This document shows positions 29,662 to 45,923 of a DNA stretch of 64,000 bases, one piece after another. The DNA is from Flavivirga abyssicola (GTDB lineage Bacteria > Bacteroidota > Bacteroidia > Flavobacteriales > Flavobacteriaceae), in NCBI RefSeq assembly GCF_030540775.2, contig NZ_CP141266.1:2529001-2593000 (forward strand), in the 5' to 3' direction. A program made the translations under genes and the position numbers. Each line of letters opens with the position of its first letter. Position 1 is the first letter of the stretch. Under the pieces are notes generated by a model, which made no database searches, was not told where the DNA came from, and saw nothing but the letters and a program-made list of their open reading frames with translations.

Positions 29662-30249
29662 TTAACCATGTTTTCCCGGGTTCCAACCTTTAGAACCAAT
29701 TAATTCTTGAGCAACTTCTTTAGGATAATCTTCTAGATCTGTAGCCATAGTGTCATTCCAACGATTCAAATAACCAAAGAGCGCAAGTGAAGCAACAATT
29801 TCTACAATTTCACTCTCGCTAAAATGCTTTTTTAATTCATCAAAATCTTCTGTAGCAGCCATATTGGGAATTAAAGCACCTTTAAAAGCGACATTTAATG
29901 CAGCCCTTTCTGCTTCAGAAAATAAAGGAGATGTTTGAAATTCCCAAACAGATTCTATTTTTTCTTTAGAGGCCTTATAAATTCTGGAAAGATTTGCCAT
30001 ATGTGCCTGACAATAACGACAACCACTGGCTTGACTGGAAATAAGACTGATAAGCATTTTTAGTTCCTCTGAAACGGTGCCTTCATACAATATAACCTGA
30101 TTTAATTGCATGAATGCTTTCGATATTTCTGGTCGTCGTTGCATGGTTAAAATACTATTAGGAATAAAACCTCTGGTTTTTTGGTAATGATCGAACTTGG
30201 GTTCTAATTCTGAATGCAAACTTTTTGAAAGTGGTTCTAGGTGTGCCAT
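29662..30249 (-). CDS. AhpD-like / carboxymuconolactone-decarboxylase-family protein
   Basis: A 195-residue cytoplasmic protein. The motif SGCRYCQAHMANLSR at about residues 76-90 gives the CxxC followed by His seen in AhpD-like alkylhydroperoxidase-related proteins. The helical segments around it (LKMLISLISSQ, IVEIVASLALFGYLNRWND) fit the peroxidase-related family. The likely role is thiol-dependent peroxide or quinone handling. It ends the minus-strand aromatic cluster, 176 bases after the TonB receptor and after a probable terminator, so it may have its own promoter. Confidence 0.8.
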   Translation of the reverse strand: MAHLEPLSKSLHSELEPKFDHYQKTRGFIPNSILTMQRRPEISKAFMQLNQVILYEGTVSEELKMLISLISSQASGCRYCQAHMANLSRIYKASKEKIESVWEFQTSPLFSEAERAALNVAFKGALIPNMAATEDFDELKKHFSESEIVEIVASLALFGYLNRWNDTMATDLEDYPKEVAQELIGSKGWNPGKHG

Positions 30250-30355
30250 AATGTTATTTTTATTTTAATGAATACCTGATTCCTATTAGTGTGTTTATAA
30301 AAAACACTAAAAATTAGAGGTTCACAAATATTATTTATTAATCGGAATTAGGTTG

Positions 30356-30399
30356 AAAAGTTAGAAGTCTCATACCATTACAGTAATGAAACCTCTAAC
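30356..30399 (-). terminator. probable terminator after the TonB receptor gene
   Basis: Read on the minus strand, GTTAGAGGTTTCAT and ATGAGACTTCTAAC pair over 14 positions (two G-U) around a 12-base loop, followed by CTTTT. It lies 27 bases beyond the receptor stop codon. Confidence 0.55.
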
Positions 30400-30425
30400 C
30401 CAATCAAACTACTTGAATAAATTAT

Positions 30426-33017
30426 TTAAAAGAATTTATAACTTAATCCTAAATTAAATTCTGCTGGTCTTGCGTAAGTACCATAAATAATACCTACTCC
30501 TGGGTTATTATAACCTCCAACAAGATAAGTTTCGTCTGTAATGTTACTACCCCCTATAGTCACTTTCCAATCTCTATTAGGGCCTTCTAACGATAAAGAT
30601 GTATTAAGTAACGTTAATCCTGGTTGTCTAAGAATTGCTGTGTTTTCTACATCATTATAAACTTCACTTTTATTAACCATATCTATATGGAACAACAATC
30701 TGGCTTTATCTTCTCCTAAAGGAAAAGTGATATCTGCTGCCACCGAACTGGAAAAATCAGGCGTATTTATAAAACTGAAATCTTCAGAAATCACTGCATT
30801 TGGATCTGTAATAGATTTATACGATGCATCAATATATCCAAAGTTTCCTGATAATAATATATTTTGGGAAGCACGCCATTGTGCATCTACTTCTACACCT
30901 TTAATTTCTGCTTGAGCAGCATTTTCAACAAAAGGAGTAATGCCTCTTTGAACTGTAATCTGTAAATCTTGATAATCGGTATAAAAAGCTGATATGTTAA
31001 ATCGGAAAGTGTTATTTGCTAAATCCGTTTTCAATCCTACCTCATAGGTATTTGCTTTTTCGGGAGCAAATTCTGGTGCTTCAAGTACTGGTGTTGTTAC
31101 TCTGGTTGTCCAACCACCAGATTTAAATCCTTGAGCAAAAAAGCCATAAGCAAATACACTTTCAGAAAATTTATACTCCGTACCTAATCTAAAGGTAGGC
31201 TCACTAAATGTTTGTTTGTTCACTCCTGGAGGATAGTATAATGTAAGATCTGATGTTGGAAAATCTTCAGGTGCTACTACACCAGTTTTTAATGCAAAAC
31301 TGTTTAAATCTCGTTGTCTGCCATCTAATTCCTTTTCCTCATAGGTAAAACGCGCACCTCCCGTAACACTCCATTTGTCGGTTAATTTTAGTGTCGCTTG
31401 AGCAAATCCCGCGTAACTTTTGTTTTTAACAAAATTCTGTCCATAAATCTGTACTAAACCTCTACCTAAAACAACTTGATCGGTAACTGAACCGTCTTCA
31501 TTAAAATAGTAAAGACCAGCGATCCATTTAAGCTTATCGTCATTTCCAACCAATTGGAATTCTTGAGTAAACTGTTTTTGTGGCATAATAAATCCGGCAG
31601 TTCCGAAATCTATAGGAGAAAAATCTTGATCTTCGGCAAATTGAGATTTTAAATTTCTATATGACGAAATGGATTTAAAATCTATGTTGTCGCTAAGTTC
31701 CCATTCTAATGTAAGTGCAGTTCCCCAGGTATCTATTTTTGTTCCTGCATCTGCAGTAGCATAATTGCTAAAAGGGTCATCTGTAATAAAACGCTCATCG
31801 TAAGGTGTCGCTCCTATCAATTCTAATCCAGGAGCGTTAGTAATAGCATTACATAATTCCGGAGGTAATAATCCAGCAGCACAGGCATTATATGCACCAA
31901 CAATAGTAGGAGCACCGCCTACATCATTAAACATGGCTAAAATTTTACTCGCATTTTGATTTTCTCTTACACGTTCGTAATCGGCACTAAAAGTAGCTGT
32001 AAATTTATCTGAAGCTAACCACTTAAGTTTTGCTCTCCAGGTATCGTTGTTTTGATTTCCTTGATCTCCATCGTTATTTACATCTGAGAAAACACCTAAA
32101 CGTGGGTTTGCAAGATCTGCATTTGCCGCTCCATTATAAGGGAGTCTTTCTACATGACCGTCTCTGTTAATTGAAGATACAGATACACTAGATAATAATT
32201 TGTCATCAATCAAAGGGATATCTACCGATACTTTGGTGTCTAATCTGTTATAACTACCAGTCGTTATTTGTCCATTAGCAGAAAACGTTCTGGAAGGATC
32301 CTTTGTTGTAATGTTTATAGCTCCGCCAATAGTATTTCTACCAAAAAGTGTACCTTGAGGACCTTTAAGCGCTTCAACTCTTGCAACGTCTAGTAAGTCG
32401 ATAACAGAACCTACAGTACGTCCAAAATAAACACCGTCTACATATAATCCAACAGCAGGTTCGTAAGTAATAGCAAAATCTACTTGACCAATACCTCTAA
32501 TATATGGCGATAAAATAGATTGACTACCACTAAAAGGTGCAGTAACATCTATTTCTACATTTGGAATATAATCACCAATTTGAGATACGTTACTAATACC
32601 TTTTGTTTCTAAAGCTTTTGCTGAAAAAGCAGCAACCGAAATAGGCACTTCTTGTACATTTTCTGATTGTTTTCTTGATGTTACGACAACAGTTTCTAAA
32701 CCGTAACCGCCTTCTTCAAGAATAACGTTAATGACGGTTTGACCAGCAACTGAAACGTCTTTGGTTTTATATCCAATAAATGAAAATACTAATATGTCAT
32801 CGCTATTTAAAGTAATAGAATATTTTCCATTAAAATCTGTTGTAGCTCCATTAGATTGATTTTTCACAATGATGTTTACACCTGGTAAAGGGCTATTGTT
32901 AGCATCTGTAACAATTCCATTAACTGTTATTTCTTGTGCAAAAGCAGATAGCGAAAAAAACATAAGAAGACACGCTATACAGACTTTAAGTTGGTGTTGA
33001 ATTACATACTTTTTCAT
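30426..33017 (-). CDS. TonB-dependent outer-membrane receptor
   Basis: An 863-residue protein. The signal peptide ends at LSAFAQ. Residues about 28-115 are a carboxypeptidase-regulatory-like domain (VNGIVTDANNSPLPGVNIIV ... FNGKYSI). The plug follows (VTSRKQSENVQEVPISVAAF, IRGIGQVDF, RVEALKGPQGTLFGRNTIGG), then a 22-strand barrel ending in aromatic YKFF. No SusD partner is adjacent, so it is not a typical glycan receptor. It follows the aldoxime dehydratase gene by 39 bases on the same strand, which suggests uptake of the compound used by the cluster; that role is an inference. Confidence 0.9.
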   Translation of the reverse strand: MKKYVIQHQLKVCIACLLMFFSLSAFAQEITVNGIVTDANNSPLPGVNIIVKNQSNGATTDFNGKYSITLNSDDILVFSFIGYKTKDVSVAGQTVINVILEEGGYGLETVVVTSRKQSENVQEVPISVAAFSAKALETKGISNVSQIGDYIPNVEIDVTAPFSGSQSILSPYIRGIGQVDFAITYEPAVGLYVDGVYFGRTVGSVIDLLDVARVEALKGPQGTLFGRNTIGGAINITTKDPSRTFSANGQITTGSYNRLDTKVSVDIPLIDDKLLSSVSVSSINRDGHVERLPYNGAANADLANPRLGVFSDVNNDGDQGNQNNDTWRAKLKWLASDKFTATFSADYERVRENQNASKILAMFNDVGGAPTIVGAYNACAAGLLPPELCNAITNAPGLELIGATPYDERFITDDPFSNYATADAGTKIDTWGTALTLEWELSDNIDFKSISSYRNLKSQFAEDQDFSPIDFGTAGFIMPQKQFTQEFQLVGNDDKLKWIAGLYYFNEDGSVTDQVVLGRGLVQIYGQNFVKNKSYAGFAQATLKLTDKWSVTGGARFTYEEKELDGRQRDLNSFALKTGVVAPEDFPTSDLTLYYPPGVNKQTFSEPTFRLGTEYKFSESVFAYGFFAQGFKSGGWTTRVTTPVLEAPEFAPEKANTYEVGLKTDLANNTFRFNISAFYTDYQDLQITVQRGITPFVENAAQAEIKGVEVDAQWRASQNILLSGNFGYIDASYKSITDPNAVISEDFSFINTPDFSSSVAADITFPLGEDKARLLFHIDMVNKSEVYNDVENTAILRQPGLTLLNTSLSLEGPNRDWKVTIGGSNITDETYLVGGYNNPGVGIIYGTYARPAEFNLGLSYKFF

Positions 33018-33056
33018 TGTTTTGAGTTTTAAGATTAGTTATATTTAGTTGAGTAT

Positions 33057-34073
33057 TTATCTAAACCAAGGAAGAAGCCCTGACTTTGGATGGCAGTTTA
33101 TATATTCAAATACTTGACCTTCGGGTAAAACCGATACTTCATGCCATAGTTTTATATCTATTTGTCCTCCTAAGGATTGTACCATGTTTAAAAAACTATT
33201 AAATATGGCTAAATGCGTAGGGTGTGTTCTAGACCATGTTTCTAAATGTTCCAGTGTTAAGAAATAGGCAAAACCAAATGTTTTCTTTGTTTTTTCACCT
33301 GATATAGTAAGCTCATCAGAAAACCTGGAACTACAGCATCCTGTTTCTTCTGGATGGGTTGAAATAAAATCCATACCTTTTATTAGATTGGGATATACTT
33401 CAGCTTGATAATACGCTTTTTCATGATCTTTACTTTCGGTTAAATTTTGAGCAGATCTAATAATAGCAAGGTTTTTAGGTGTTTTTAGATGCACTCGTTT
33501 TCCTAAAGTTTCAATATGTGATTGCTGTGTTAAGTTTTCTGTATTTCCTTCTAGTAAATTAACCTCAGAAATTTCTAAACGATCTCGCATACCACCCCAA
33601 TAATTATGCTCTTTAATAGGACCTTTAAAATCGTTAAACATCGTTGCAGCTCCCGCTTTATCTTCCGATGAGAAAAGGGTTTCAAAGCGTTCCAAAGGAA
33701 TAATCATAGGTTCTGCCCAATAGCCAAAATCGTCATTTACGCGGTCGTCAGAATTCCACCAATTAGTAAACAAATGAGCTGCTCTCCATGCGTCATAACT
33801 TGCTTTAGAATTCCAATAAGAAATATAAAAACCGTTTCTATAATTTTCATTATCGATAACATGACCTCTTTCTGTATGAATTGGTGCATGGTCAGCTTTT
33901 AGTAAGCTTGAATACCAATTATGAAATTCATTAGGTGTTTTATTAGAATCGTTTTGGATTTGATACCCAAAATAGCCAATAACAATTTCGGTACAGCCTG
34001 ATTCTATTTTAGCACTCCAGGCAGGAACCGGTGGTTCCCAGCCTTTAGGCATGTTTTTTTTATATTTTCTCAT
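33057..34073 (-). CDS. oxd: heme-containing aldoxime dehydratase (phenylacetaldoxime dehydratase type)
   Basis: A 338-residue cytoplasmic protein close to the usual length (about 350) of Oxd enzymes, which dehydrate aldoximes to nitriles. The family fingerprint is visible: N-terminal PxGWxPPVPAW, the segment YWGGMRDR (conserved Arg), the Cys/Ser run ETGCCSSRF (conserved Ser region), and SRTHPTHLAIFNSF, with His284/His287 as candidate heme ligands plus His311 in LWHEVSV. Its start overlaps the nitrilase stop by four bases (ATGA), so the nitrile produced is handed to the next enzyme of the same operon. Substrates of known enzymes are aryl- and alkyl-aldoximes; arylacetaldoxime is inferred here from the homogentisate genes. 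Confidence 0.88.
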   Translation of the reverse strand: MRKYKKNMPKGWEPPVPAWSAKIESGCTEIVIGYFGYQIQNDSNKTPNEFHNWYSSLLKADHAPIHTERGHVIDNENYRNGFYISYWNSKASYDAWRAAHLFTNWWNSDDRVNDDFGYWAEPMIIPLERFETLFSSEDKAGAATMFNDFKGPIKEHNYWGGMRDRLEISEVNLLEGNTENLTQQSHIETLGKRVHLKTPKNLAIIRSAQNLTESKDHEKAYYQAEVYPNLIKGMDFISTHPEETGCCSSRFSDELTISGEKTKKTFGFAYFLTLEHLETWSRTHPTHLAIFNSFLNMVQSLGGQIDIKLWHEVSVLPEGQVFEYINCHPKSGLLPWFR

Positions 34074-35089
34074 GATTGCTCGGTTATTTCTTCTTTTAAA
34101 ACCTCCTCAGTCTTTGCTTCTTTTCCTGCATTGTATGCTTCTCTTAATACTACTGGTCGTTGAGGTTTTGGATTGAAAAGTAGCTGGGTAACATCTGGTC
34201 TTGCATAATGACCTGCAGGGTCTGCAGCTGCTTTGGCTACTGCTATGGCTCCTAAGTCTATATCGGCATATAAAATACCTTCTTGATCATGCGGAATAGG
34301 TTCTGCCAATTCAGATCCATCTGGTCCATATATTCTGGCGTAACCACCACCTAATGGCAGGAAGTCCTTTTTCAGATCAGTATCGCATAGCATATCATGA
34401 ATTTCCTGAGTTATTAAAGGTGTTGGTGCAACAACATAACACGACCCTTCTACGGCATAAATTCGACTTGCGGCTGTGTTTACTTGATAGCCTAAGGCAA
34501 AAGCCTTTCCTTCATATAAAGAAAATCCGGGCCATGCAGCAAAGTGTACTTGTTCATTTTGTGAGTACATGGCATATTTACTCAACGGTTGTAAATGTTC
34601 CCAACACGCTAAAGCTCCTAGTTTTCCTATTCTGGTATCATGGACTTTAAGATCGCTGCCGTCACCATTACCAAATACAGTACGTTCCACATGTGTAGGT
34701 TTTAATTTTCGTCTTGCAGATATGGTTTCTCCTTCATCGTCAATAAGTAGTTGTGCAATATATAATGATCCGCCATCGCGTTCACTAAAGCCCATACCTA
34801 CATAAATATTATTTCGTCTTGCAGCTTCACAGAGTCGCATGTGTTGTTCGCTCCCAATTTCCATTGAGTTTTCAAAATAGGGCTGTACATGTTGCATGCC
34901 CATAGCAGGTGCATCAAGCCATATCCACCAAGGATACCCTGGTAACCAACATTCTCCGAAAGTGACAAGTTTTGCTCCATTATTTGAGGCTTCTTCAATT
35001 AATTTTATTGCTTTATCGATTGAGGCATTTAAGTTTAAAAAAACTGGTGCAGCTTGTACAGCGGCAACTTTGTAGCTTGAATTTTCCAT
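34070..35089 (-). CDS. nit: nitrilase (branch 1, likely arylacetonitrilase)
   Basis: A 339-residue enzyme hydrolysing nitriles directly to acids and ammonia. The catalytic triad is intact: Glu46 in FGECWLPGYPWW, Lys128 in RRKLKPTHVERTVFG, and Cys162 in GALACWEHLQPL. These contexts are those of true nitrilases rather than amidases or N-carbamoylases. The length fits the family. It forms a two-gene unit with aldoxime dehydratase, as in soil actinobacteria and pseudomonads. Direct repeats 22 bases apart upstream of its start could be AraC sites. Confidence 0.92.
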   Translation of the reverse strand: MENSSYKVAAVQAAPVFLNLNASIDKAIKLIEEASNNGAKLVTFGECWLPGYPWWIWLDAPAMGMQHVQPYFENSMEIGSEQHMRLCEAARRNNIYVGMGFSERDGGSLYIAQLLIDDEGETISARRKLKPTHVERTVFGNGDGSDLKVHDTRIGKLGALACWEHLQPLSKYAMYSQNEQVHFAAWPGFSLYEGKAFALGYQVNTAASRIYAVEGSCYVVAPTPLITQEIHDMLCDTDLKKDFLPLGGGYARIYGPDGSELAEPIPHDQEGILYADIDLGAIAVAKAAADPAGHYARPDVTQLLFNPKPQRPVVLREAYNAGKEAKTEEVLKEEITEQS

Positions 35090-35157
35090 AATAAATTGAC
35101 TTTTTTTGTTTAACTGGTATCAAGTAACAACTAATAAATGCGGATGAATTGTTCAAT

Positions 35158-35185
35158 AGTGCACAAAGTGTTGTCAATTAGTGCA
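35158..35185. promoter_or_regulatory. candidate AraC-type operator (direct repeats)
   Basis: AGTGCA occurs at 35158-35163 and again at 35180-35185, exactly 22 bases apart, each preceded by TCAAT or TCAATT. Two half-sites about two helical turns apart in direct orientation are typical for AraC proteins. They lie 69-96 bases upstream of the nitrilase start and next to the araC gene. Binding is an inference. Confidence 0.4.
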
Positions 35186-35188
35186 ATA

Positions 35189-35217
35189 CAAAAAAAAGGC
35201 TCCTTAAAAGGAGCTTT
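35189..35217 (-). terminator. intrinsic terminator of the araC gene
   Basis: On the minus strand GCAAAGCTCCTT and AAGGAGCCTTT form a stem with a short TT loop and one bulged base, followed by a run of T. It lies 32 bases after the araC stop and before the nitrilase promoter region, so the nitrilase/aldoxime unit is probably transcribed separately. Confidence 0.75.
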
Positions 35218-35248
35218 GCATGTATATTTTTATGGAATGGTTGGTCGA

Positions 35249-36241
35249 TTAAGAAATAAGTTGAATCCTGTTTAGTTTTAAGGATTGTCCACAGATTGTT
35301 CTATATTCTCCTGGTGGAATACCAAATTTCTGTTTAAAACATTTTGTAAAGTTACTAATGTTATTGAATCCATTTTTATAACCTATCTCAGAAATACTTA
35401 GTTTTGATAAGCCTAAGTTTTCAATATCTTTTTTACATTTCTCTAATCTAGAATTACGGATGTAATTATTTATAGTACAATTTTCGTCATTAAAAAGTTT
35501 ATGTAATTGTCGCTTAGAGCATTTAAATGTGCGGGCAATTTGCTGAATGGATAATTGCGGATTAGTAATTTGCTCTTCAACAAAAGATTTAATGCCCAAC
35601 AACATGGTTTCTTTAGAGGGCGATGCATTTTTTTGCGAAGTGAACTTTAAATTTAAATAATCGTTTAACAGTTGAAGTAAATTATTAGCTAAATACTTTC
35701 TGGTAAATACATCAACTACTTTTAATTCAAGACTCAAACTATAAATAAAGTTTTTTAAAATTTTCCCTAAACCTGAATCATCTAATAATTGTGCCGTATT
35801 TGCAGTCACGTATGATGTTCCGTAAGTTAATAAACGGCGAGGAATTTTTAAAACCAACTGTTCAAATGCGCCTTTAAAATTTAATTCGTAAGGTCTGGTA
35901 CTATCTGTAAAACTCCAATCATTTGGTTTAAGAACAACGGTTCTGCCATCTTGTTTTAGAATAGATTGTCCGCTTAATTGAAAATTAATTAAAAAATAAT
36001 CTTCTGAAGATTTAGCAATAAGGCTTTTACTTCTTCTAACACCGCTTCCTTGAGATGTTATTTTGCAAACATGAATGGTATCTAATTGATGGCCTACAAG
36101 CGACCCGAAAAAAGAGGATTGTCCACCATTATGAAAAACATCCAATTCAATGAGGGTTTGGCATACATAATCATTCCAATAAGATAAAGCATCTTTAGGA
36201 GCTACTTTTTGAGTACTTATGTAATAGTCAGCTGCTTGCAT
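35249..36241 (-). CDS. AraC-family activator with AraC_binding_2-like N-terminus
   Basis: A 330-residue protein. The N-terminal part (about residues 20-200) contains YFLINFQLSGQSILKQDGR and FTDSTRPYELNF, the beta-rich sensor seen in FeaR- and NphR-type regulators. The C-terminal HTH pair has LSIQQIARTFKCSKRQLHKLF and ISEIGYKNGFNNISNFTKCFKQKFGIPPGEYR. NphR-type proteins activate nitrilase or aldoxime operons in actinobacteria. The position directly upstream of nit-oxd makes a role in sensing aldoxime, nitrile or amine plausible. Confidence 0.85.
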   Translation of the reverse strand: MQAADYYISTQKVAPKDALSYWNDYVCQTLIELDVFHNGGQSSFFGSLVGHQLDTIHVCKITSQGSGVRRSKSLIAKSSEDYFLINFQLSGQSILKQDGRTVVLKPNDWSFTDSTRPYELNFKGAFEQLVLKIPRRLLTYGTSYVTANTAQLLDDSGLGKILKNFIYSLSLELKVVDVFTRKYLANNLLQLLNDYLNLKFTSQKNASPSKETMLLGIKSFVEEQITNPQLSIQQIARTFKCSKRQLHKLFNDENCTINNYIRNSRLEKCKKDIENLGLSKLSISEIGYKNGFNNISNFTKCFKQKFGIPPGEYRTICGQSLKLNRIQLIS

Positions 36242-36266
36242 GAGTTTTAGAGATTTATAAATATAA

Positions 36267-37343
36267 TCATTTTTTTAATCTTTTCTTAATTGGCCAAAAG
36301 CTAAAGAAACCTGTAAGGACTAGAATTAATGGAAAAGAAATCCCTAACATAATATCTGCAATCCATAAATCTAACCGGTAGCTCCCTGTTTTTCCTGCTG
36401 CTAAATCTTCGCCCGTGATGTATGGCGATAAGTTATAGTATATAGCATACATAAGTAATCCCATGGAAGTAGCAACAATTATTTTATATAATCCTTTAAG
36501 GGGCTGTGAGGTTTTTTCAAAAAGTAAAAATTGCGTCATGTTATTTACTAAAAACACACCAAAAACCATACATATAGGCACTAAAACCATATATACCATG
36601 ATGTCCATTTTAATAACTTCTACAAAAAATGATTGAAAAGCAAAAGTAATAACGAGTACCAGCAGGGTATTTATTATGGTTTTAACAGGTTGTTTTCCAC
36701 CTGTCCATCTATCTAAAATCCAGCTATCAAATAATGCCAGATATAATATAATTGGGCAGCAGCTAATTATAAAGACTATGGCATTTACAAAATTAAAAGC
36801 ACCTTTTGGGTCTAAAATGTCAAGATACCACGGTGCTAAACCAGCAACGCTTTCATAATTAAAAAACAACACCCAAATTAAATAGGCTAGGGTATAAGCA
36901 AGTATTAAAGTTAAAATACCAACACCGACGATGTTCTTTACTCTTCCTATAAATGGCCAAAAGTTTACAACTACAGCTAACCAAATCGTAGTAATAATAA
37001 CAATAATCATGTAATGTGATAACTGTGGAGAAAGTATCCAATTCCCTTTTGCAAGAGTTAGTATGGTTAAACTGCCAATTACTAATCCGGAAAGTGCCGA
37101 GATTAACGTAAGTATGATACCTTTATAAGGCTGAGGTTTTTGATCTAAACCTTTAATAAACGGAAGGTTATTTTGCCATAAAATACCAATTATTATTTGT
37201 GTAGGAGTAGCAGCCATAAAGAAAAAAACGATCCATTGGTAATTCATGGCATTAGGTATTGCTGCTATGGAAAACGCCATGGCCATAACAAGTAGTAAGG
37301 CTAAAATACCATGTGTTAGAATTTGTTTTATTGAAGGTACCAT
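36267..37343 (-). CDS. polytopic inner-membrane protein, 358 aa
   Basis: About ten hydrophobic segments span the protein (for example ILALLLVMAMAFSIAAI, WIVFFFMAATPTQIIIGILW, YMIIVIITTIWLAVVVNFWPF). No MFS, ABC or BCCT signature is visible and I do not recognise the family. It is ten bases downstream of the FAD monooxygenase and 25 bases upstream of araC on the same strand, so it is part of the aromatic operon. Transport of the substrate or of an acid intermediate is a reasonable guess, nothing more. Confidence 0.6.
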   Translation of the reverse strand: MVPSIKQILTHGILALLLVMAMAFSIAAIPNAMNYQWIVFFFMAATPTQIIIGILWQNNLPFIKGLDQKPQPYKGIILTLISALSGLVIGSLTILTLAKGNWILSPQLSHYMIIVIITTIWLAVVVNFWPFIGRVKNIVGVGILTLILAYTLAYLIWVLFFNYESVAGLAPWYLDILDPKGAFNFVNAIVFIISCCPIILYLALFDSWILDRWTGGKQPVKTIINTLLVLVITFAFQSFFVEVIKMDIMVYMVLVPICMVFGVFLVNNMTQFLLFEKTSQPLKGLYKIIVATSMGLLMYAIYYNLSPYITGEDLAAGKTGSYRLDLWIADIMLGISFPLILVLTGFFSFWPIKKRLKK

Positions 37344-37353: not shown

Positions 37354-39237
37354 TTAAGATTTTATTAATACATTATGTGCTTTAATAGCTTTAGCCGAAT
37401 TTATAAGGTCATTCCATTCATTAATATCTTCGGTTTTGTCCATGAGTAGCAAAATTAATTTGGCATTTAACTTATGACTTTCTTCTTCTGTTAACCCTTC
37501 ATGTGATTCTATTAAGGCTTTGTACATGTCATCTTTTAGGTGTTGTGGATTCATATCTTTTATATTAGATTTTGAATGGTCTTCAGAATTATTTGTAGCT
37601 TTTAAAATGGCATTTTTTATGCGTTTGTTGTCTAACACCTTTCCTCTTGAAGCTATGTAATGGTCTGGTCTTAACAAATACCAACTCCCTTTTTGTGCAT
37701 CGTATCTGTTTTTAAAATAATTATTATTATCAACTAAACCGTTATGATTTTGTGCATCCGAAATAACAATTACTTTTACGTTAAACATATCTGTTAAATC
37801 TGTAATGCCTTCGGGCTTTTCTCCGTATACTATTAAAGTAAAATCATGCCCTAGTTCGTCAATAAGGTATGTTGTTTTATCATGTTTTTTTAGTTCAACA
37901 TCATTAAACGAATATCCGGGTTGTAGGCTGGCTTGCCAATCATCAGAAGGATTGTCTGTAGATGTTAACGAAGAATCTAAATATTTAAAGGCATTTGAAA
38001 GTCTACCACTATTTACTAATTTTTGAGCAAACACATGGTCTTTTGCTAAATCTAGGGTTTGGTTTCTAAATATCGTACTTATTTTAGATTTAGGCGATAT
38101 AAAATCGGTAGCATTAGAAGAGTGATATATATTTTCGTCTGCTGCTGGACTTCGTTCTTCCTGATAGGTATCGAGGAGCGATTTTGGAGCTAATCCTTTT
38201 ATGACATAGGCCAATTTCCAAGATAAATTATCAGAATCCTGAACACCGCCATTAGCACCCCGAGCCCCAAATGGAGATACTTGATGTGCACTATCTCCGG
38301 CAAAAATAACTCTATCGTGAATCAAGTTATCCATACGCATGCATCTAAAATTATAAATACTGGTCCATTCTAATTCAAACTTGCAGTCGTCTCCTAGCAT
38401 TTTGCGTAAACGCTCTTTAATACGTTCTTGGTCTAATTCTTTAGTCTTGTCAATACCATCTCTGCCTAATTGTAAATCGATACGCCATACACCATCTGGT
38501 TCTTTGTGTAATAATGCTGAATACCCTTTATTAAATGGCGGATCGAACCAAAACCAACGTTCTGTTGGAAAATCATTTTCCATAGTAATGTCTGCAATAA
38601 GGAAATTTTCCTCAAATAATTCTCCTTTAAAAGGAAGATTCATAGCATTTCGGGTAGGGCTATGCACGCCGTCGCAAGCCAATAGATACTCAGATTCTAT
38701 AGTGTAGTTTCCTGTTTCGGTTTCAATTTTAAGAGTTACTTTGTCATCATCCTGAGCTATAAAATGGGCTTTACTTTGCCAGCGCAAATCAATTAAAGGG
38801 TTCTTATGTGCTTCATCGGCTAAGTATTCTTCAAAATAATATTGCTGTAGATTTATAAATGCAGGTATTTTATGTCCTTCCTCAGGTAGTAAGTTGAATT
38901 TATATACTTCTTCATTTTTATAAAATACTTTACCTAAGTTCCAGGTAATGCCTTTATTAATCATTCTAGATACAGCATCCGGGTTTATTCTATGCACTAT
39001 TTCCAGGCATTTTTTTGAAAAACACAATGCCCTACTACCAATACTTACCGAGTTTTCCTTACTAAAAACAACGCTAGATATACCTCGGTTAGCTAAGTCT
39101 AATGCTGTCGTTAAACCAACTGGACCAGCACCAATAATAGCAACCTGGTGTTTTGTTGGCGTATTAGAATTCATATCTGAAACCTTTTTAAGAGGATAGA
39201 TAGGATTCGTGTACGTTTTTGGTATAACCCATTTCAT
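37354..39237 (-). CDS. MhpA-like FAD-dependent aromatic monooxygenase with fused C-terminal small domain
   Basis: A 627-residue class A flavoprotein hydroxylase. The FAD-binding GAGPVGLTTALDLA is near residue 36; LLACDGVHSPTRNAM marks the DG motif; GDSAHQVSPFGARGANGGVQD is the second FAD motif. A thioredoxin-like region follows at about 440-545. Residues about 561-627 (DDMYKALIESHEGLTEEESH, LNAKLILLLMD) look like the small DUF2783-type protein that is usually encoded separately beside such hydroxylases. The long start is kept because homologous proteins also have a short PxxP-like lead before the FAD motif. It probably makes homogentisate from a hydroxyphenylacetate; the exact substrate is inferred. 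Confidence 0.82.
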   Translation of the reverse strand: MKWVIPKTYTNPIYPLKKVSDMNSNTPTKHQVAIIGAGPVGLTTALDLANRGISSVVFSKENSVSIGSRALCFSKKCLEIVHRINPDAVSRMINKGITWNLGKVFYKNEEVYKFNLLPEEGHKIPAFINLQQYYFEEYLADEAHKNPLIDLRWQSKAHFIAQDDDKVTLKIETETGNYTIESEYLLACDGVHSPTRNAMNLPFKGELFEENFLIADITMENDFPTERWFWFDPPFNKGYSALLHKEPDGVWRIDLQLGRDGIDKTKELDQERIKERLRKMLGDDCKFELEWTSIYNFRCMRMDNLIHDRVIFAGDSAHQVSPFGARGANGGVQDSDNLSWKLAYVIKGLAPKSLLDTYQEERSPAADENIYHSSNATDFISPKSKISTIFRNQTLDLAKDHVFAQKLVNSGRLSNAFKYLDSSLTSTDNPSDDWQASLQPGYSFNDVELKKHDKTTYLIDELGHDFTLIVYGEKPEGITDLTDMFNVKVIVISDAQNHNGLVDNNNYFKNRYDAQKGSWYLLRPDHYIASRGKVLDNKRIKNAILKATNNSEDHSKSNIKDMNPQHLKDDMYKALIESHEGLTEEESHKLNAKLILLLMDKTEDINEWNDLINSAKAIKAHNVLIKS

Positions 39238-39281
39238 AATATTAGCAGTTTTAATGATTATAATTGTAGCTCATTCATGTA

Positions 39282-40232
39282 TTATGAGTTTAACTCATTC
39301 CACATCTCTATGTCTCTTTCGTCAGTCCAAATTCTTGGATGAGAAATACCACTAGCTTCATCGTAAGCTCGTGTTACGTTAAAAGGCATGCAGTGTTCAA
39401 AAATCACCCATTTGCCAAAACGGGGTGTCATATTAGTCATTAAGGCGTCATAGCATTGTTTTAAAGTTTCGCCTCTGGTAACACTCAATAATGCTTCTTG
39501 ATATAGCATGGTTACAAATTCTGAAGTCATTTGAATCGCTTCTTGACATTCTACTTCATTTTTTAATGCTTCACCACGCCCTGGAACTAATGCTTTTGGT
39601 TTAAAATCACTTAATTTTTGAAGTGTTAGTGGCCAGTTTTTAAGTTGTGCGTCACCACAATATGGTGTTGCTCCATACTCTACTAAATCGCCAGCGAACA
39701 TCACTTTTTCATCTGGAACCCAAACGATACTATCACCTCGTGTATGCCCTTCGCCTACATGCATAATTTCTACTTTTTTATTACCAAGGTCTACAGTAAG
39801 TTTATCTTCAAAAATCATAGTAGGATGCGTAAGCCCAGGGATACTTTCATATCCTCTGAATAATCGTGGAAAGCGTTCAAATTCACTTTGCCAATCTTGA
39901 GCCCCACGCTCTTCAACCATTTCATTGGTTTTTTGAGACATGATAATTTCGTCTACACCATACTCGCTTGCTCCCAATACTCTTACTGCATGGTAATGTG
40001 TAAGTGCTAAATATTTTATAGGCTTATCTGTGACGCTACGTATTTTAGCAATAACGTCTTTTGCCATACGCGGTGTAGCCTGTGCTTCGACAACCATAAC
40101 ATAGTCATCTCCAATTATAACACCGCTATTAGGATCACCTTCAGCAGTGTATCCGTAACAGCCTTTTCCTAGTTCTACAAAAGAGATTTCTTTTTCTCCT
40201 AAATCAGCTTTTGATGCAAATTCTTTTGCCAT
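39282..40232 (-). CDS. divergent metallo-beta-lactamase-fold protein
   Basis: A 316-residue protein with the MBL fold order. The motif 2 position reads THYHAVRVLG instead of T-H-x-H-x-D-H-x-x-G: the two first histidines remain, but the Asp and third His are Val and Arg. Motif 3 (GEGHTRGDS) and motif 4 (FAGDLVE) are normal. The C-terminal His motif is PGRGE. One metal site is therefore probably altered or single-metal. It sits between the FAD hydroxylase and the CoA-transferase genes. The function is unknown; hydrolase, lactonase or isomerase activity on a ring-cleavage intermediate is possible. Confidence 0.8.
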   Translation of the reverse strand: MAKEFASKADLGEKEISFVELGKGCYGYTAEGDPNSGVIIGDDYVMVVEAQATPRMAKDVIAKIRSVTDKPIKYLALTHYHAVRVLGASEYGVDEIIMSQKTNEMVEERGAQDWQSEFERFPRLFRGYESIPGLTHPTMIFEDKLTVDLGNKKVEIMHVGEGHTRGDSIVWVPDEKVMFAGDLVEYGATPYCGDAQLKNWPLTLQKLSDFKPKALVPGRGEALKNEVECQEAIQMTSEFVTMLYQEALLSVTRGETLKQCYDALMTNMTPRFGKWVIFEHCMPFNVTRAYDEASGISHPRIWTDERDIEMWNELNS

Positions 40233-40304
40233 GGTTTTAATTTTTTATGTTCAATTATTATATATTTATTTCTGATATCTTGAATGCTCGTGTTGTTTTT
40301 TGTA

Positions 40305-40958
40305 CTACAAACACATTTCAAGTATTTCTCCTTCAATAATTAGATGGCCTTCTGTGGCCTCTTTTATAGTTTCTACTGAAACACCTGGTGCGCGTTCTAG
40401 TAGTTTAAATCCGTTTTTTGTTATTTCTAATACGGCTAGGTTGGTCACAATCTTTTTTACACATCCCACACCGGTTAATGGTAAAGAGCATCTTTTTAAT
40501 AGTTTGGATTCACCTCGTTTGTTGGTATGCATCATGGCTACGATAATGTTCTCTGCACTAGCCACCAAATCCATAGCACCCCCCATACCTTTTACCATTT
40601 TTTTCGGAATCTTCCAATTGGCGATATCACCGTTTTCTGCGACTTCCATAGCGCCTAATATGGTAAGGTCTACATGTTGTCCTCGGATCATTGAAAAACT
40701 CATTGACGAATCAAAAAAGCTCGCTCCTGCTAATGTGGTGATGGTTTGTTTTCCTGCATTAATGACATCGGCATCTTCTTCCCCTTCAAATGGGAAAGGC
40801 CCCATACCTAATACCCCATTTTCACTTTGAAACTCTACTTCGATATCGTTTCGTACATAGTTGGCTACTAGAGTAGGAATACCTATCCCTAGATTAACAT
40901 AATAGCCATCTTGTACTTCTTTTGCGATTCGTTTTGCTATGCCTGTTTTGTCTAACAT
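40305..40958 (-). CDS. scoB: 3-oxoacid CoA-transferase subunit B
   Basis: A 217-residue subunit. GIGIPTLVANYV near residue 25 and the catalytic Glu46 in FQSENGVLGMGP are diagnostic. With subunit A it moves CoA from succinyl-CoA to acetoacetate, the end product of homogentisate breakdown. It is separated from scoA by a 121-base gap filled by a palindromic repeat, which is longer than usual for this pair. Confidence 0.93.
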   Translation of the reverse strand: MLDKTGIAKRIAKEVQDGYYVNLGIGIPTLVANYVRNDIEVEFQSENGVLGMGPFPFEGEEDADVINAGKQTITTLAGASFFDSSMSFSMIRGQHVDLTILGAMEVAENGDIANWKIPKKMVKGMGGAMDLVASAENIIVAMMHTNKRGESKLLKRCSLPLTGVGCVKKIVTNLAVLEITKNGFKLLERAPGVSVETIKEATEGHLIIEGEILEMCL

Positions 40959-40975
40959 CTGTTTTTCCTTTTTGT

Positions 40976-41068
40976 CATTCCTGCGAAGGCAGGAATCTTT
41001 CCAATTGAAACTTAATTTTTAAAAGTGGATTCCTGCCTTACTGAAACAAGTTCAGCACAAGTTGCAGG
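40976..41068. repeat. palindromic intergenic repeat between scoA and scoB
   Basis: ATTCCTGC-GAAG-GCAGGAAT forms a hairpin at 40979-40998, and further copies of the core (GATTCCTGCC at 41030, GCAGGAATGA at 41063) follow. The same hairpin recurs at 52404-52423 and inverted at 52513-52532. It is a dispersed repeat that has inserted between two subunit genes of one enzyme. Confidence 0.65.
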
Positions 41069-41079
41069 AATGAAACCCT

Positions 41080-41796
41080 TTATTGTCTTAGTCTTACGGT
41101 TCTCTGTTCAATACGTTTTTCATAAGTATCTCCTTGAAAAATACGTTGTACAAATATCCCTGGAATATGAATTTGGTTAGGGTCTAATGTGCCCAGTGGC
41201 ACTAATTCTTCAACTTCAGCCACCGTTATTTTAGCTGCCCCACACATATTCGGGTTAAAGTTTCTGGCAGTTCCTTTAAATATTAGGTTTCCTGCTGCAT
41301 CGCCTTTCCATGCTTTTACAAAAGCGAAATCGGCTTTAAAGGCATGTTCCAGTACATACATTTTACCATCAAACTCACGGGTTTCTTTGCCTTCAGCTAC
41401 TTCGGTGCCATAGCCTGCCGGGGTGTACACTGCTGGAAATCCAGCTTGGGCAGCACGACAACGTTCTGCTAACGTGCCTTGTGGTATGAGTTCTACATCT
41501 AATTCTCCTGATAACATCTGGCGCTCAAACTCATCATTTTCTCCCACATAAGACGATACCATTTTTTTAATTTGTTTTTGCTGAAGTAATAACCCTAACC
41601 CAAAATTATCTACACCGGCATTGTTTGAGATACAAGTGAGTCCTGATACGCCTAATTTTACCAATTTTGCAATCGCATTTTCGGGAATACCGCTCAATCC
41701 GAAGCCGCCTAACATTAAGGTCATGCCATCTTTTACGCCTGATAAAGCTTCTGAAATGTTATTTACTTTTTTGTTAATCATTTTTAATGAGTTCAT
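41080..41796 (-). CDS. scoA: 3-oxoacid CoA-transferase subunit A
   Basis: A 238-residue subunit. [13 protein letters not shown] near residue 32, [12 protein letters not shown], and [18 protein letters not shown] are characteristic of the alpha subunit. ATG 41796 gives a five-residue lead before MINKKVNN; the ATG at 41781 is an alternative. With subunit B it activates acetoacetate to acetoacetyl-CoA, linking the homogentisate route to thiolysis. Confidence 0.93.
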
Positions 41797-41874
41797 TTTT
41801 TTTAGATTAAATAAACCTTTCGACTGCGCTCAAGGAGACAACTGGTGTAGCATTTAATACAATATTTTATTCCA

Positions 41875-42768
41875 TTAATTCATACAGAACAATACTTCTA
41901 GAGCTGTTTCTGTTTCATTATTATTTATAAAGCCCTGCGCGTATTTATGCAATTCGTTTTGCCTTACTGCGCTATCTTCAATTTGAAAAATACGTTGAAT
42001 GTCTTCTGAATTTTTATGCTTTTCTATTTGAGATACAGTTGGTATGTGCTCTAAGTTTCCTAATCGCCCTAAGTTGTTCCCTGAAAGGATATTACTTTTA
42101 AATACATGTGCTGGCAAATTATCTACACCTATCCCTTTATTAAAAATGGGTTTTGGTATTTCGAATAAGGCATCGCCACTTGCTCTACAGTACCAACTTT
42201 CTCCCATACGAGCTACTAAGTCTAATTTTTGTGTGTCTAAGCTACCTTTACCATTCAAATATTGTTCTTGAATATGAATGCATTCTATTTTAGAGATCAC
42301 CAAATTTCCTGCACCACCTTCTTGTCCTAATTCTATAACTTTTTGAACGGTACATTCAAAGGATACTGGTGATTCTACTACCCTTGGGGGTTTTACAATT
42401 TCTGATGGGATTTCTGTAAGACCTGCTTTTTTAAATTCGTTAACTCCTTTAGTATATTCGGTACTAGACAATGAGGTTTGCTCAACAATGCTATGGTTTA
42501 CAATGTTTATAACCACTTCATTTACCACTTTTACATTTTCATAGGTGTGTTTAACCGTATTGTCTCTTCCACGTCTTGCTGGTGAAAAAATTAAAATAGG
42601 TGGATTGGCACTAAAAACATTGAAAAAACTAAACGGACTTAAATTTACATGACCATTAGCGTCAATTGTACTGGCTAAAGCAATAGGTCGAGGCGCAACT
42701 GCAGAAAGCAAAATTTGATGCAATTCTGAAGTTTTAATCGTTTTTGGATCTATCGTTTTAGTAGCCAT
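41875..42768 (-). CDS. flavin-reductase-like (DIM6/NTAB family) protein
   Basis: A 297-residue protein. The first 200 residues match FMN-binding flavin reductase-like proteins: SAVAPRPIALASTID, NLSPFSFFNVFSANPP, ESPVSFECTV. A C-terminal extension of about 90 residues (from about IPTVSQIEKHK) is helical. It is two bases from fumarylacetoacetase on the same strand. Such proteins recur beside hmgA and fah genes in Bacteroidota, but the biochemical role is not settled; supplying reduced flavin, or an isomerase-like role, are options. Confidence 0.8.
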   Translation of the reverse strand: MATKTIDPKTIKTSELHQILLSAVAPRPIALASTIDANGHVNLSPFSFFNVFSANPPILIFSPARRGRDNTVKHTYENVKVVNEVVINIVNHSIVEQTSLSSTEYTKGVNEFKKAGLTEIPSEIVKPPRVVESPVSFECTVQKVIELGQEGGAGNLVISKIECIHIQEQYLNGKGSLDTQKLDLVARMGESWYCRASGDALFEIPKPIFNKGIGVDNLPAHVFKSNILSGNNLGRLGNLEHIPTVSQIEKHKNSEDIQRIFQIEDSAVRQNELHKYAQGFINNNETETALEVLFCMN

Positions 42769-42770
42769 TA

Positions 42771-44027
42771 TTAATTGTTTTTTGCTGGTAATAGCTTTGT
42801 TCTTACTTCTCCAAACCCGACACGCATTGTTTCATTTTCACAATAACCACGCATAATAACTGTATCGTTATCATTAATGAATTTGCGTTCCGACCCATCG
42901 TTAAGTTTTATTGGTTTTTGTCCTGCCCAAGCTAATTCTAACATAGAGCCGTAACTATCTGGAGATTTTCCGCTTATTGTCCCTGATCCCATCATATCTC
43001 CAACAGTCAGATTACAGCCATTCATGGTATGATGTGCTAATTGTTGTGCCATATTCCAATACATATATTTAAAGTTGGAGTTGCTTATGGTGGTTTCCGC
43101 TTTGTTTTCGGGTTGTAAAGCCACTTCTAATTTAATATCGTAATTCTTTTTACCTGAATATTTTAAATAGGACAACACATCTGGTTCTTGTTCTGGTCCC
43201 TGAACTCTAAAAGGCTCTAGGGCTTCCATTGTTACTACCCAGGGAGAAATTGAAGAGGCAAAGTTTTTTGCTAAAAAGGGTCCTAATGGAATGTATTCCC
43301 ATTTTTGTACATCTCTGGCCGACCAGTCGTTAAAAACAACTTTCCCAAAAATATAGTCTTCGGCAATATTTGTATTTAGGGTTTCACCTAAGTTGGTGCT
43401 TTTCCCTATAATGTATGCCATTTCCAATTCGAAATCTATGCGTTTCGATGTAGTGTAAATAGGTTTATCTTCTCCTATTGGAAGAATTTGTCCCATTGGT
43501 CTGTGTACATCTTCACCACTACTTATTATGGAAGATGCTCTACCATGATAGCCTACAGGAATATGTTTCCAGTTAGGTAACAAAGCGTTTTCCGGATCTC
43601 TAAACATTTTGCCAACATTGGTGGCATGTTCTATACTAGAATAAAAATCAGTGTAATCCCGTATAAAAACGGGAAGATGCATATTAGCATCGCTTTGTAA
43701 AACAAAGGCTTTTGTATTTCCTTTTAAAACAGAATTGTCGTTGATTAATTCTTTTTGAATGGTTAGCCTAACGTCGTTAGTTATTGTTTTTCCTAAATCA
43801 ATAAACGGATTTAAAAATTCATTTTTAAAAACAACATCTTCTATACTTAAATGATCGAAAACCCCTAGATGATTGGCTACACTTAAATCTAAAATATACT
43901 CACCAATGGCTACACCTATACGTTTGGTATCATCTGAATTAGAAAAAATTCCAAACGGGATATTATGAATTGAAAAATCTGAATTTTCGGGTATAGTAAC
44001 CCAACTTGAGCTATTTGTTATCATCAT
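42771..44027 (-). CDS. fahA: fumarylacetoacetase
   Basis: A 418-residue enzyme, the usual length. An N-terminal SH3-like domain is followed by the catalytic domain with RASSIISSGEDVHRP, FELEMAYIIG (metal-binding acids), VVFNDWSARDVQKWEYIPLG, LAKNFASSISPWV and MGSGTISGKSPDSYGS. It splits fumarylacetoacetate into fumarate and acetoacetate. Ten bases separate it from homogentisate dioxygenase upstream, so the genes are co-transcribed. Confidence 0.95.
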   Translation of the reverse strand: MMITNSSSWVTIPENSDFSIHNIPFGIFSNSDDTKRIGVAIGEYILDLSVANHLGVFDHLSIEDVVFKNEFLNPFIDLGKTITNDVRLTIQKELINDNSVLKGNTKAFVLQSDANMHLPVFIRDYTDFYSSIEHATNVGKMFRDPENALLPNWKHIPVGYHGRASSIISSGEDVHRPMGQILPIGEDKPIYTTSKRIDFELEMAYIIGKSTNLGETLNTNIAEDYIFGKVVFNDWSARDVQKWEYIPLGPFLAKNFASSISPWVVTMEALEPFRVQGPEQEPDVLSYLKYSGKKNYDIKLEVALQPENKAETTISNSNFKYMYWNMAQQLAHHTMNGCNLTVGDMMGSGTISGKSPDSYGSMLELAWAGQKPIKLNDGSERKFINDNDTVIMRGYCENETMRVGFGEVRTKLLPAKNN

Positions 44028-44036
44028 TTATATTAT

Positions 44037-45218
44037 TTAATCTAACCAAGATGTATGATACGTTTCATCTGCTATTTTCATGGCTTCTTCTGTTACTTTT
44101 AAAGGTTTAAAAGTGTCTACCATGACGGCAAGTTCTTCTGTTTTTGTTTCTCCAATACTTCGTTCGGCTGCTCCTGGGTGTGGACCGTGAGGAATACCTG
44201 CTGGATGCAATGAAATATGTCCTGCATCAACATCATTTCTACTCATAAAATCACCATCAACATAATACAAAACTTCATCACTATCTATATTGCTGTGGTT
44301 ATAAGGCGCAGGAATACTATCTGGGTGGTAATCGTATAATCTTGGTACAAAACTGCAGATTACAAAAGCATTGGTTTCAAAGGTTTGGTGTACTGGTGGC
44401 GGCTGATGAATTCTACCTGTTATAGGTTCGAAATCATGAATTGAAAAGGCATATGGATAATTAAATCCGTCATAACCTACCACATCAAAAGGATGTGTTG
44501 CGTAAACAACTTCAATAATATCATTCTGCTTTTTAATTTTCATTAGAAACTCGCCCTTTTCATCATGAGTTTCTAACTCTGATGGACGACGAATATCACG
44601 CTCGCAAAATGGTGAGTGTTCAAGTAATTGACCAAACCAGTTTCTATAACGTTTTGGCGTATAAACCGGACTATAAGATTCTACTATAAATAAGCGATTG
44701 TCTTCTGTATTGAAATCTATTTGATAAATCATACCTCTTGGGATTACTAAATAATCACCATAACTAAAGGTTAGATTTCCCATATGCGTACGCAATGTTC
44801 CTGTTCCTTTATGGATAAAAAGCACTTCATCTGCATCGGTATTTTTATAAAAATAATCTCGTAATGATTTTTTGGGTGCTGCCAGAATAATATTGCAATC
44901 ATTATTAGTTAGTATAATCTTTCTACTATCTAAATAGTCACCCTCTGCAGGAACATCGAAACCTGTAAATTTATAAGACTTTAAATTATTTGCCTTAGCA
45001 ACTTTAGGTGCTATACTATATTGCTTTACTATTTTTTTAACCTGAGTTGGTCTGTGCTCGTGATATAAGTTTGATGACATGCCGTCAAAACCTATGGTTC
45101 CAAATAATTGTTCGTAATATAAATCACCATTTGGCTTTCTAAAAATGGTGTGTCTCTTCTTTGGAATGTCTCCTAATTTATGATAAAAAGGCATGATTAT
45201 AAATTTTTGTTGATACAA
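44037..45218 (-). CDS. hmgA: homogentisate 1,2-dioxygenase
   Basis: A 393-residue cupin-type iron dioxygenase that opens the homogentisate ring to maleylacetoacetate. The metal region has PYNHSNIDSDEVLYYVDGDF (His308, Glu315 candidates) and LHPAGIPHGPHPG (His338, His344). PPPVHQTFETNAFVICSFVPR is also typical. The ATG at 45218 is followed by a short lead; MPFYHKLGDIPKKRH (ATG 45194) is a possible inner start and matches the usual N-terminus better. It heads the minus-strand cluster, divergent from a TetR gene. Confidence 0.95.
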   Translation of the reverse strand: MYQQKFIIMPFYHKLGDIPKKRHTIFRKPNGDLYYEQLFGTIGFDGMSSNLYHEHRPTQVKKIVKQYSIAPKVAKANNLKSYKFTGFDVPAEGDYLDSRKIILTNNDCNIILAAPKKSLRDYFYKNTDADEVLFIHKGTGTLRTHMGNLTFSYGDYLVIPRGMIYQIDFNTEDNRLFIVESYSPVYTPKRYRNWFGQLLEHSPFCERDIRRPSELETHDEKGEFLMKIKKQNDIIEVVYATHPFDVVGYDGFNYPYAFSIHDFEPITGRIHQPPPVHQTFETNAFVICSFVPRLYDYHPDSIPAPYNHSNIDSDEVLYYVDGDFMSRNDVDAGHISLHPAGIPHGPHPGAAERSIGETKTEELAVMVDTFKPLKVTEEAMKIADETYHTSWLD

Positions 45219-45246
45219 ACATAAACAATTGTTGATTAAAATACAA
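45207..45246 (-). promoter_or_regulatory. hmgA promoter with overlapping palindromic operator
   Basis: On the minus strand TATGTTTG (45216-45223) fits the -7 box and TTG (45244-45246) the -33 box, 20 bases apart. Between them lies the perfect palindrome AACAATTGTT (45224-45233). TTGTTGAT also occurs twice, 22 bases apart (45207, 45229). A repressor bound to the palindrome would block the promoter. The adjacent TetR protein is the obvious candidate. Confidence 0.5.
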
Positions 45247-45344
45247 CATTTTTTTATTTAAAGTGATTTTATTGTTATCTTGCACCACATAATTATATGG
45301 TAATATTAATGCGGTAAGTATTACTGAACATAGAAAAATCTACA

Positions 45345-45923
45345 ATGAAAACTATTTCTAAAAAAGAAGAATTTTTACAAGAATCATTAAAATTAATTCA
45401 TGAAAAAGGCTTTAAAGCCACTACTATGAGGGATATAGCAGAGCGTTTAAATTTTGATGTATCAAATAGTTACAACTACATAAAATCTAAGCAAGAAATA
45501 TTAGAAAGCTTTTTATTTAGAACGTCTAATGAATTTCATAATTCTATAGATAATGTGATAGCATCTAACTATGGAGTAGAAGATAAATTGAAATTATTAA
45601 TCTCGTCTCATATACAAATTGCATCCCAAAAACCTTATGAAGTTGCATTATTAGTTAATGAATGGCGCAATTTAAAAGAGCCTAAGTATACCGAGTTTGT
45701 GACCTTACGAAGTGGTTATGAGAAAAAAGTAAGTGATTTAATAAAAGAAGGGATTAAATCAAAAATATTTAAAGATATGGATATTAAGATTGCTACTTCG
45801 GTGGTTTTGGCTTCGCTTCGCTGGTTTTACGATGAATATACAACCAAAGATGGGGTCTCTTTGAACCCAATCGAATTTGAACGCCAAATTGTTGGATATA
45901 TACTAAGTGGGATAATGGTTTAG
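45345..45923 (+). CDS. TetR-family transcriptional regulator
   Basis: A 192-residue protein. The N-terminal HTH reads GFKATTMRDIAERLNFDVSNSYNYIKSKQEIL (residues about 20-50). A helical ligand domain follows. It is divergent from hmgA, with 126 bases between the starts. Local control of the homogentisate genes by an aromatic or CoA-ester ligand is likely but not shown. PaaR-type proteins have a similar look, so it could respond to a phenylacetate-type metabolite. Confidence 0.88.
   Translation: MKTISKKEEFLQESLKLIHEKGFKATTMRDIAERLNFDVSNSYNYIKSKQEILESFLFRTSNEFHNSIDNVIASNYGVEDKLKLLISSHIQIASQKPYEVALLVNEWRNLKEPKYTEFVTLRSGYEKKVSDLIKEGIKSKIFKDMDIKIATSVVLASLRWFYDEYTTKDGVSLNPIEFERQIVGYILSGIMV

Follow-up and report, generated by a model that had tools for sequence, protein, structure and literature searches.

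What would a flavobacterial cell do with a gene cluster in which an aldoxime dehydratase and a nitrilase lie together with enzymes of homogentisate breakdown? The question is raised by a 64,000-nucleotide stretch of Flavivirga abyssicola DNA (the window; positions 2529001-2593000 of a 4.68-Mb genome in a single contig), in which a run of 13 open reading frames (ORFs) on the minus strand extends from an AhpD-like gene (29662-30249) through hmgA (44037-45218). We consider it fairly probable that this cluster encodes a dedicated route by which a ring-hydroxylated arylacetaldoxime is broken down to fumarate and acetoacetyl-CoA.

Borders and aldoxime-nitrile genes of the cassette

All thirteen consecutive minus-strand genes described in the initial annotation, from hmgA to the AhpD-like gene, were confirmed, and its end at 45923 takes in a divergent plus-strand gene, named tetR-type from its sequence (45345-45923). 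This gene lies behind hmgA and closes a unit of 14 genes (29662-45923). Out of 50 tested window ORFs (at least 100 aa), 14 matched a 50-kb contig of Flavivirga aquatica (E <= 1e-8), namely ahpD to tetR in the same order, with 70-97% identity and with tetR as the last common gene (71%). The other 36 ORFs had no match on that contig. Since only these 14 genes match, we regard the unit as a discrete cassette that includes mbl, ahpD and tetR. Distances between neighbouring genes range from -4 to 176 bp, and the larger gaps (159 bp between araC and nit, 176 bp ahead of ahpD) suggest about two transcription units, one from hmgA to araC and one from nit to ahpD. The F. aquatica cluster carries an extra gene between araC and nit (L005 6915-8279; 454 aa, DUF7482 match), which is not there in the window.

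By its sequence, the gene at 33057-34073 (338 aa) is oxd, a predicted heme aldoxime dehydratase. PF13816 (Dehydratase_hem) matched with 282 bits (cut-off 25) over residues 33-333, which is the whole length, and R165, S207, H287 and H311 align with R178, S219, H299 and H320 of 3a15. We take the latter to be the catalytic Arg and Ser and the proximal and distal His of OxdRE, assuming a 20-residue numbering offset. The protein falls outside the aliphatic OxdA subfamily (261.7 bits against the NCBIfam equivalog, cut-off 600). The nitrilase gene (34070-35089, 339 aa) overlaps oxd by 4 bp. Its product belongs to CN_hydrolase (PF00795) and keeps E46, K128 and C162 in the alignment with solved nitrilases, presumably the Glu-Lys-Cys catalytic triad; the score against TIGR04048 (Nit6803 type) was 252 bits (cut-off 502.6), a negative hint on substrate class. 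Thus, both the Oxd-type dehydratase and the true nitrilase of the initial annotation held up, the former with its aligned catalytic residues kept.

An AraC-family regulator (35249-36241; AraC_binding_2, best NCBIfam model FeaR, under its cut-off) lies upstream of nit in a NitR-like position. On the other side of oxd lies the gene of a TonB-dependent receptor (30426-33017, 863 aa). This protein, whose name comes from its sequence and similarity rather than from a Pfam scan, is 35-36% identical to receptors of the four sphingomonad clusters described below and likely serves uptake. The last gene encodes an AhpD-like protein of the CMD family (195 aa, C-x-x-C, Pfam CMD), which is also present in the F. 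aquatica cluster (95% identity) and in both Erythrobacter clusters (60-61%). An Erwinia plasmid carries an oxd locus of the form nit-oxd-transporter, without mha genes. Just beyond the cassette, on the same strand, two more genes (28166-29011 and 27236-28075) were named AraC-type regulators from their sequences.

Within the family, PF13816 was found in 2 of 397 sampled genomes and the cassette's hydroxylase (E <= 1e-60) in 2 of 388. The initial annotation had proposed a search for their co-occurrence, and the two genomes are the same for both genes. Across the phylum, PF13816 was found in 2 of 395 sampled genomes, the window's own and one with a weak partial match. Radisch et al. report a small number of Oxds for Bacteroidetes and do not use the word homogentisate in the main text of their paper (PMC8955678). 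A contig from an Aquimarina metagenome-assembled genome holds nit-oxd without other cluster genes, but is only 5.4 kb long. Additionally, a genome of the same genus (G256) contains a broken AhpD piece (G256:C1:4937237-4937684; L173 10230-10679) with 86% DNA identity over 450 bp to window positions 29658-30106. No other window gene was found in the 35 kb around this piece, and neither oxd nor the hydroxylase was found genome-wide at the thresholds used, which suggests that G256 may have lost the cassette.

Hydroxylase and homogentisate genes

The flavoprotein hydroxylase (37354-39237, 627 aa) had been called MhpA-like. This label was rejected, as the best MhpA-type model scored 184 bits (cut-off 390) versus 710 bits for PRK08132 (cut-off 416; residues 9-550). 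Pfam placed PF01494 (FAD_binding_3) and, fused to it at residues 558-605, PF10932 (DUF2783). In Pseudomonas putida U, MhaA (566 aa) and MhaB (60 aa) are described as the 3-hydroxyphenylacetate 6-hydroxylase that forms homogentisate (PMC3053370), and the window protein has about the summed size of the two. From size and position, we infer that the DUF2783 part corresponds to MhaB. Together, the FAD hydroxylase part, DUF2783 and the summed size point to an MhaA-MhaB fusion, as which the protein is best read, with a predicted conversion of hydroxyphenylacetate to homogentisate. MhaA-type enzymes hydroxylate phenols. If the MhaAB identity is right, the acid reaching the hydroxylase should already bear a ring hydroxyl (3-hydroxyphenylacetate, possibly 4-hydroxyphenylacetate), and plain phenylacetate would be an unlikely direct substrate.

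Six plasmid loci of the hydroxylase family were hand-picked among 59 records. In all six, the FAD-dependent oxidoreductase adjoins a small gene, which is labeled DUF2783 except at one locus, where it is listed as hypothetical. Both hmgA and fahA are annotated close by in five loci each; at the Sphaerotilus locus there is a VOC-fold gene together with fahA, but no hmgA.

We also looked at the surroundings of the hydroxylase in Pseudomonadota, where it was found (E <= 1e-100) at 51 places in 48 of 378 sampled genomes. Forty-eight places were used as centres, and up to 8 kb was read to either side (4 of the 48 stretches are cut short by contig ends); the Novosphingobium genome G004 (= L008) and the weaker second places G1453:C92 and G1261 were left out. 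Neighbour genes were counted by tblastn at a bit score > 45. A metallo-beta-lactamase-fold (MBL) gene was present at 43 loci, a further mhaB match at 41, hmgA at 31, fah at 26 and FAH2 at 10. The VOC gene was present at 11 (8 without hmgA, 3 with). If VOC is counted as a possible stand-in, 41 of the 48 loci have at least one of hmgA, fah, FAH2 and VOC, which supports the linkage of the hydroxylase to homogentisate genes; the remaining 7 have no homogentisate gene within the 8-kb reach. Among the 48 homologues, a fused MhaA-MhaB was clear in one (L156) and at chance level in another (L147, 12 residues), while a narrower, in fact too narrow, motif detected it in none.

The MBL companion in the window (39282-40232; Pfam and alignment) has the motif HYHAVR, which is invariant, with Arg substituting for the expected last His, in all 49 aligned sequences including that of the window. 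We take the usual motif at this position to be HxHxDH, so that the metal site appears changed. A close solved structure is 8d2z (E 9e-119).

The homogentisate genes proper belong to their expected families by Pfam, as first proposed, with the correction that hmgA and fah are second genomic copies. The cassette hmgA matched HgmA_N with 51 bits (cut-off 20.2) and HgmA_C barely (21.7 bits, cut-off 21), and reached 74.7 bits against the TIGR01015 equivalog (cut-off 510.75). With the latter score so far under the cut-off, we assign it by neighbourhood and domain as a divergent type of homogentisate 1,2-dioxygenase. The His, Glu and His of its motifs PYNH, DEV and PHGP align with 1ey2, and we assume these to be the iron ligands. 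Its listed start is TTG; translation may instead begin with the ATG at position 45194. The other hmgA of the genome, 81% identical, adjoins hppD near 1.44 Mb; the cassette copy was therefore rejected as the ordinary tyrosine-pathway gene. The cassette fah (42771-44027) belongs to FAA_hydrolase by Pfam and scored 564.5 bits against TIGR01266 (cut-off 375.3), and another fah, 59% identical, lies near 4.40 Mb. F. aquatica also has two copies of each. A comparison of the two species gave 96% identity for the cluster hmgA and 90% for the cluster fah, and 93% and 88% for the respective other copies. We conclude that the cassette hmgA and fah are probably dedicated second copies.

The module further contains the two subunits of a 3-oxoacid CoA-transferase, scoB (40305-40958) and scoA (41080-41796), both CoA_trans, and a flavin-reductase-like protein (41875-42768, 297 aa; Flavin_Reduct). 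The F. aquatica counterpart of the latter (L074 ~14933-15824) matches as two pieces overlapping by a few bases and may be frameshifted. Between araC and the hydroxylase lies a gene for a membrane protein (36267-37343) with about nine hydrophobic segments by hydropathy, a possible transporter. Searches of Pfam, NCBIfam and PDB sequences gave no match for it; three weak matches (~28%) were to hypothetical proteins on Klebsiella plasmids, and the single-sequence structure model has a mean pLDDT of 46.

Proposed route, sphingomonad counterparts and competing explanations

The gene families, catalytic residues, borders, second hmgA and fah copies and hydroxylase-homogentisate linkage can be read from the sequence, and on them we base the inferred substrate, direction, uptake and regulation of the pathway. 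An aldoxime (or nitrile) would enter via the TonB receptor, and Oxd would dehydrate a (3-)hydroxyphenylacetaldoxime to the nitrile. The nitrilase would then release hydroxyphenylacetate, most likely 3-hydroxyphenylacetate, which the fused MhaAB would convert to homogentisate. The second HmgA would cleave the ring, isomerisation (enzyme unassigned) would follow, and the second FAH would yield fumarate and acetoacetate, with ScoAB activating the acetoacetate. AraC probably governs nit-oxd and TetR the hmgA side. The cell would thus probably use an aromatic aldoxime completely as food. A chain from aldoxime through nitrile and arylacetate to homogentisate had already been proposed in the initial annotation; parallel clusters in sphingomonads (below) lend support to it, and plain phenylacetate becomes an unlikely direct substrate.

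In a variant of this route, the nitrilase product is 4-hydroxyphenylacetate, made from tyrosine-derived 4-hydroxyphenylacetaldoxime, and the hydroxylase is a 4-hydroxyphenylacetate 1-hydroxylase acting with migration of the acetate chain to give homogentisate. Such a 1-hydroxylase is known, and the organisms that PMC9338888 lists for the route include a Flavobacterium sp. We nevertheless hold the variant to be rather unlikely, as P. putida MhaAB is reported to use 3-hydroxyphenylacetate and not to recognise 4-hydroxyphenylacetate, and MhaA expression in a Paraburkholderia xenovorans control strain is given as very low on 4- versus 3-hydroxyphenylacetate (PMC10983741).

The chain from aldoxime to homogentisate gains further weight from sphingomonads. 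Among 397 sampled genomes of the family to which Novosphingobium (G004) belongs, 6 contain oxd (E <= 1e-20), at 7 places in total. Each of these places also has nit and araC, and at 2 of the 7 mhaA and mbl lie beside oxd. Two Erythrobacter loci add two more. These four loci have in common oxd-nit, araC, the TonB receptor gene, mbl, mhaA, mhaB and VOC, in a gene order that differs from that of the flavobacterial cassette. A FAH-like gene comes next in three of the four (in L009 only its end is visible), L073 stopping soon after VOC. In Novosphingobium L075, maiA (TIGR01262 above cut-off) and scoAB follow, and AhpD is present in the two Erythrobacter loci. No match to hmgA (TIGR01015) or fah (TIGR01266) was found in three of these sphingomonad genomes (G004-G006).

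In the MhaA tree, the flavobacterial pair stands apart from the four sphingomonad sequences. A grouping of the two, as expected from a common origin of the oxd-mha linkage judged by MhaA, was rejected (approximately unbiased test, p 0.0028), with the reserve that this was a quick tree. The position of the sphingomonad MhaA elsewhere on the tree suggests that the joining of oxd and mha probably happened twice, separately in sphingomonads. Loss with replacement is a possible alternative to two MhaA-linked origins. In the Oxd tree, the six mha-linked proteins fall in one branch of 13 rows (SH-aLRT 100) with seven others, where long branches meet.

Several findings weigh against a joint pathway. 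A contig scan by short peptide patterns, which catches only relatives matching those patterns, gave 39 oxd loci, 4 of which have mhaA (L005, L008, L009, L010), several loci ending at contig ends. No mhaA was seen at 5 of the 7 sphingomonad oxd places in the stretches read (among all sphingomonad oxd stretches, those of L066, L072 and L073 reach contig ends), and oxd, nit and ahpD occur at none of the 48 mhaA loci within 8 kb. As oxd and mhaA loci are mostly without each other, each module usually stands alone. The copies in the two flavobacteria resemble each other closely and amount to a single case in evolutionary terms. Their MhaA sits on a long branch (1.03) with an unusual letter make-up, and this makes the case for two origins weaker. 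A maleylacetoacetate isomerase of the GST type (TIGR01262, E <= 1e-5) was found neither in the window genome nor in Flavivirga; the isomerisation step is therefore left without an assigned enzyme, though both genomes have two hmgA and two fah. Further, we found no literature pairing an aldoxime with 3-hydroxyphenylacetonitrile.

These absences, oxd-nit-araC without mha and mha without oxd alike, would fit two independent neighbours, with nit-oxd, receptor and ahpD detoxifying or scavenging nitrogen from unrelated aldoximes, and mhaAB-hmgA degrading free hydroxyphenylacetate. Separate regulators (AraC and TetR) and the 159-bp gap between araC and nit, where F. aquatica has its extra gene, would also agree with this. 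However, the pairing recurs in sphingomonads in another order and with MhaA of a different branch, and F. aquatica has the cassette in common with the window as one piece in a different setting, with own hmgA and fah copies inside. We therefore judge independence unlikely. A biosynthetic role of the cluster, such as the making of an auxin-like acid or of precursors of pyomelanin, is very improbable: homogentisate is a pyomelanin precursor (PMC9338888), but hmgA, fah and scoAB would draw it into central metabolites, and no biosynthetic gene was seen among the 14.

Candidates came up for two enzyme steps. A VOC-fold protein of ~185 aa occurs in some mha clusters (L008 1966-2514, L010 1299-1883, L056 11911-12468 and others). 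Its presence without nearby hmgA at 8 of the 48 loci, together with the three sphingomonad genomes lacking an hmgA match, makes it a candidate replacement of homogentisate dioxygenase. It has a close solved structure (9u42, E 8e-76), and its model (mean pLDDT 81) matches methylmalonyl-CoA epimerase (Z 12.6), human HPPD (Z 11.0) and 2,6-dichlorohydroquinone dioxygenase (Z 9.5). These matches reflect the general VOC fold, and therefore no function follows from them. For the isomerisation, the AhpD-like protein came into view as a replacement of MaiA when AhpD and maiA looked mutually exclusive inside clusters. The idea is weakened, as both Erythrobacter genomes carry a TIGR01262 gene elsewhere, and the flavobacterial genomes and one Erythrobacter genome (G006) have further AhpD-like genes.

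More broadly, and quite speculatively, two phyla could at least twice have assembled a mineralisation of hydroxyphenylacetaldoxime via homogentisate, with VOC replacing the cupin HmgA in sphingomonads and a glutathione-free AhpD-like or flavin-reductase-like protein performing the flavobacterial isomerisation. If this were true, hydroxyphenylacetaldoximes would be a recurrent, so far unrecognised source of carbon and nitrogen in the habitats of both phyla.

Comparison with known systems

The modules are known, and their combination is apparently undescribed as far as our literature searches reached. No description of oxd-nit with the hydroxylase and homogentisate genes was found in the literature searched, mostly outside subscription journals. 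The view that no such cluster had been described thus stands for the Bacteroidota literature searched, although similar clusters exist in Sphingomonadales. The linkage of the aldoxime-nitrile pathway to ring degradation in flavobacteria and sphingomonads in turn predicts a natural substrate. Further, the MhpA-like gene is reinterpreted as a fused MhaAB, and the clusters point to questions about enzymes, namely the MBL partner, VOC for HmgA and a glutathione-free isomerase.

The closest aldoxime-nitrile systems are those of Bacillus sp. OxB-1 and Bradyrhizobium sp. LTSPM299, where an AraC/NitR regulator, nitrilase and Oxd are reported in one cluster (PMC8955678), as are araC, nit and oxd here. 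They are described there as regulator, nitrilase and Oxd only, whereas the Bacteroidota cassette adds the hydroxylase, the homogentisate route, the TonB receptor and the AhpD-like protein.

On the hydroxylase side, P. xenovorans LB400 is described with an MhaAB pair (BxeA2727/2726) beside hmgA1B1C1 (PMC3053370). Like P. putida U, it offers a FAD hydroxylase of ~560 aa and a partner of ~60 aa adjoining homogentisate genes. Likened to these by size and context, the window protein differs in being fused (627 aa) and in its company: oxd-nit is joined to it, hmgA is divergent, and no GST-type isomerase was found.

Breakdown of phenylacetate and 4-hydroxyphenylacetate via homogentisate has reportedly been seen in a Flavobacterium, judging by a title cited in PMC9338888. 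Also by its title, a 1991 paper by van Berkel and van den Tweel, cited in PMC6043778, is said to concern a 3-hydroxyphenylacetate 6-hydroxylase that depends on FAD and comes from a Flavobacterium species. Compared by title and without a gene sequence, this enzyme has the same reaction as proposed here, though its strain may fall outside today's Flavobacteriaceae. The fused mhaAB of the window would provide a candidate gene for the activity reported then.

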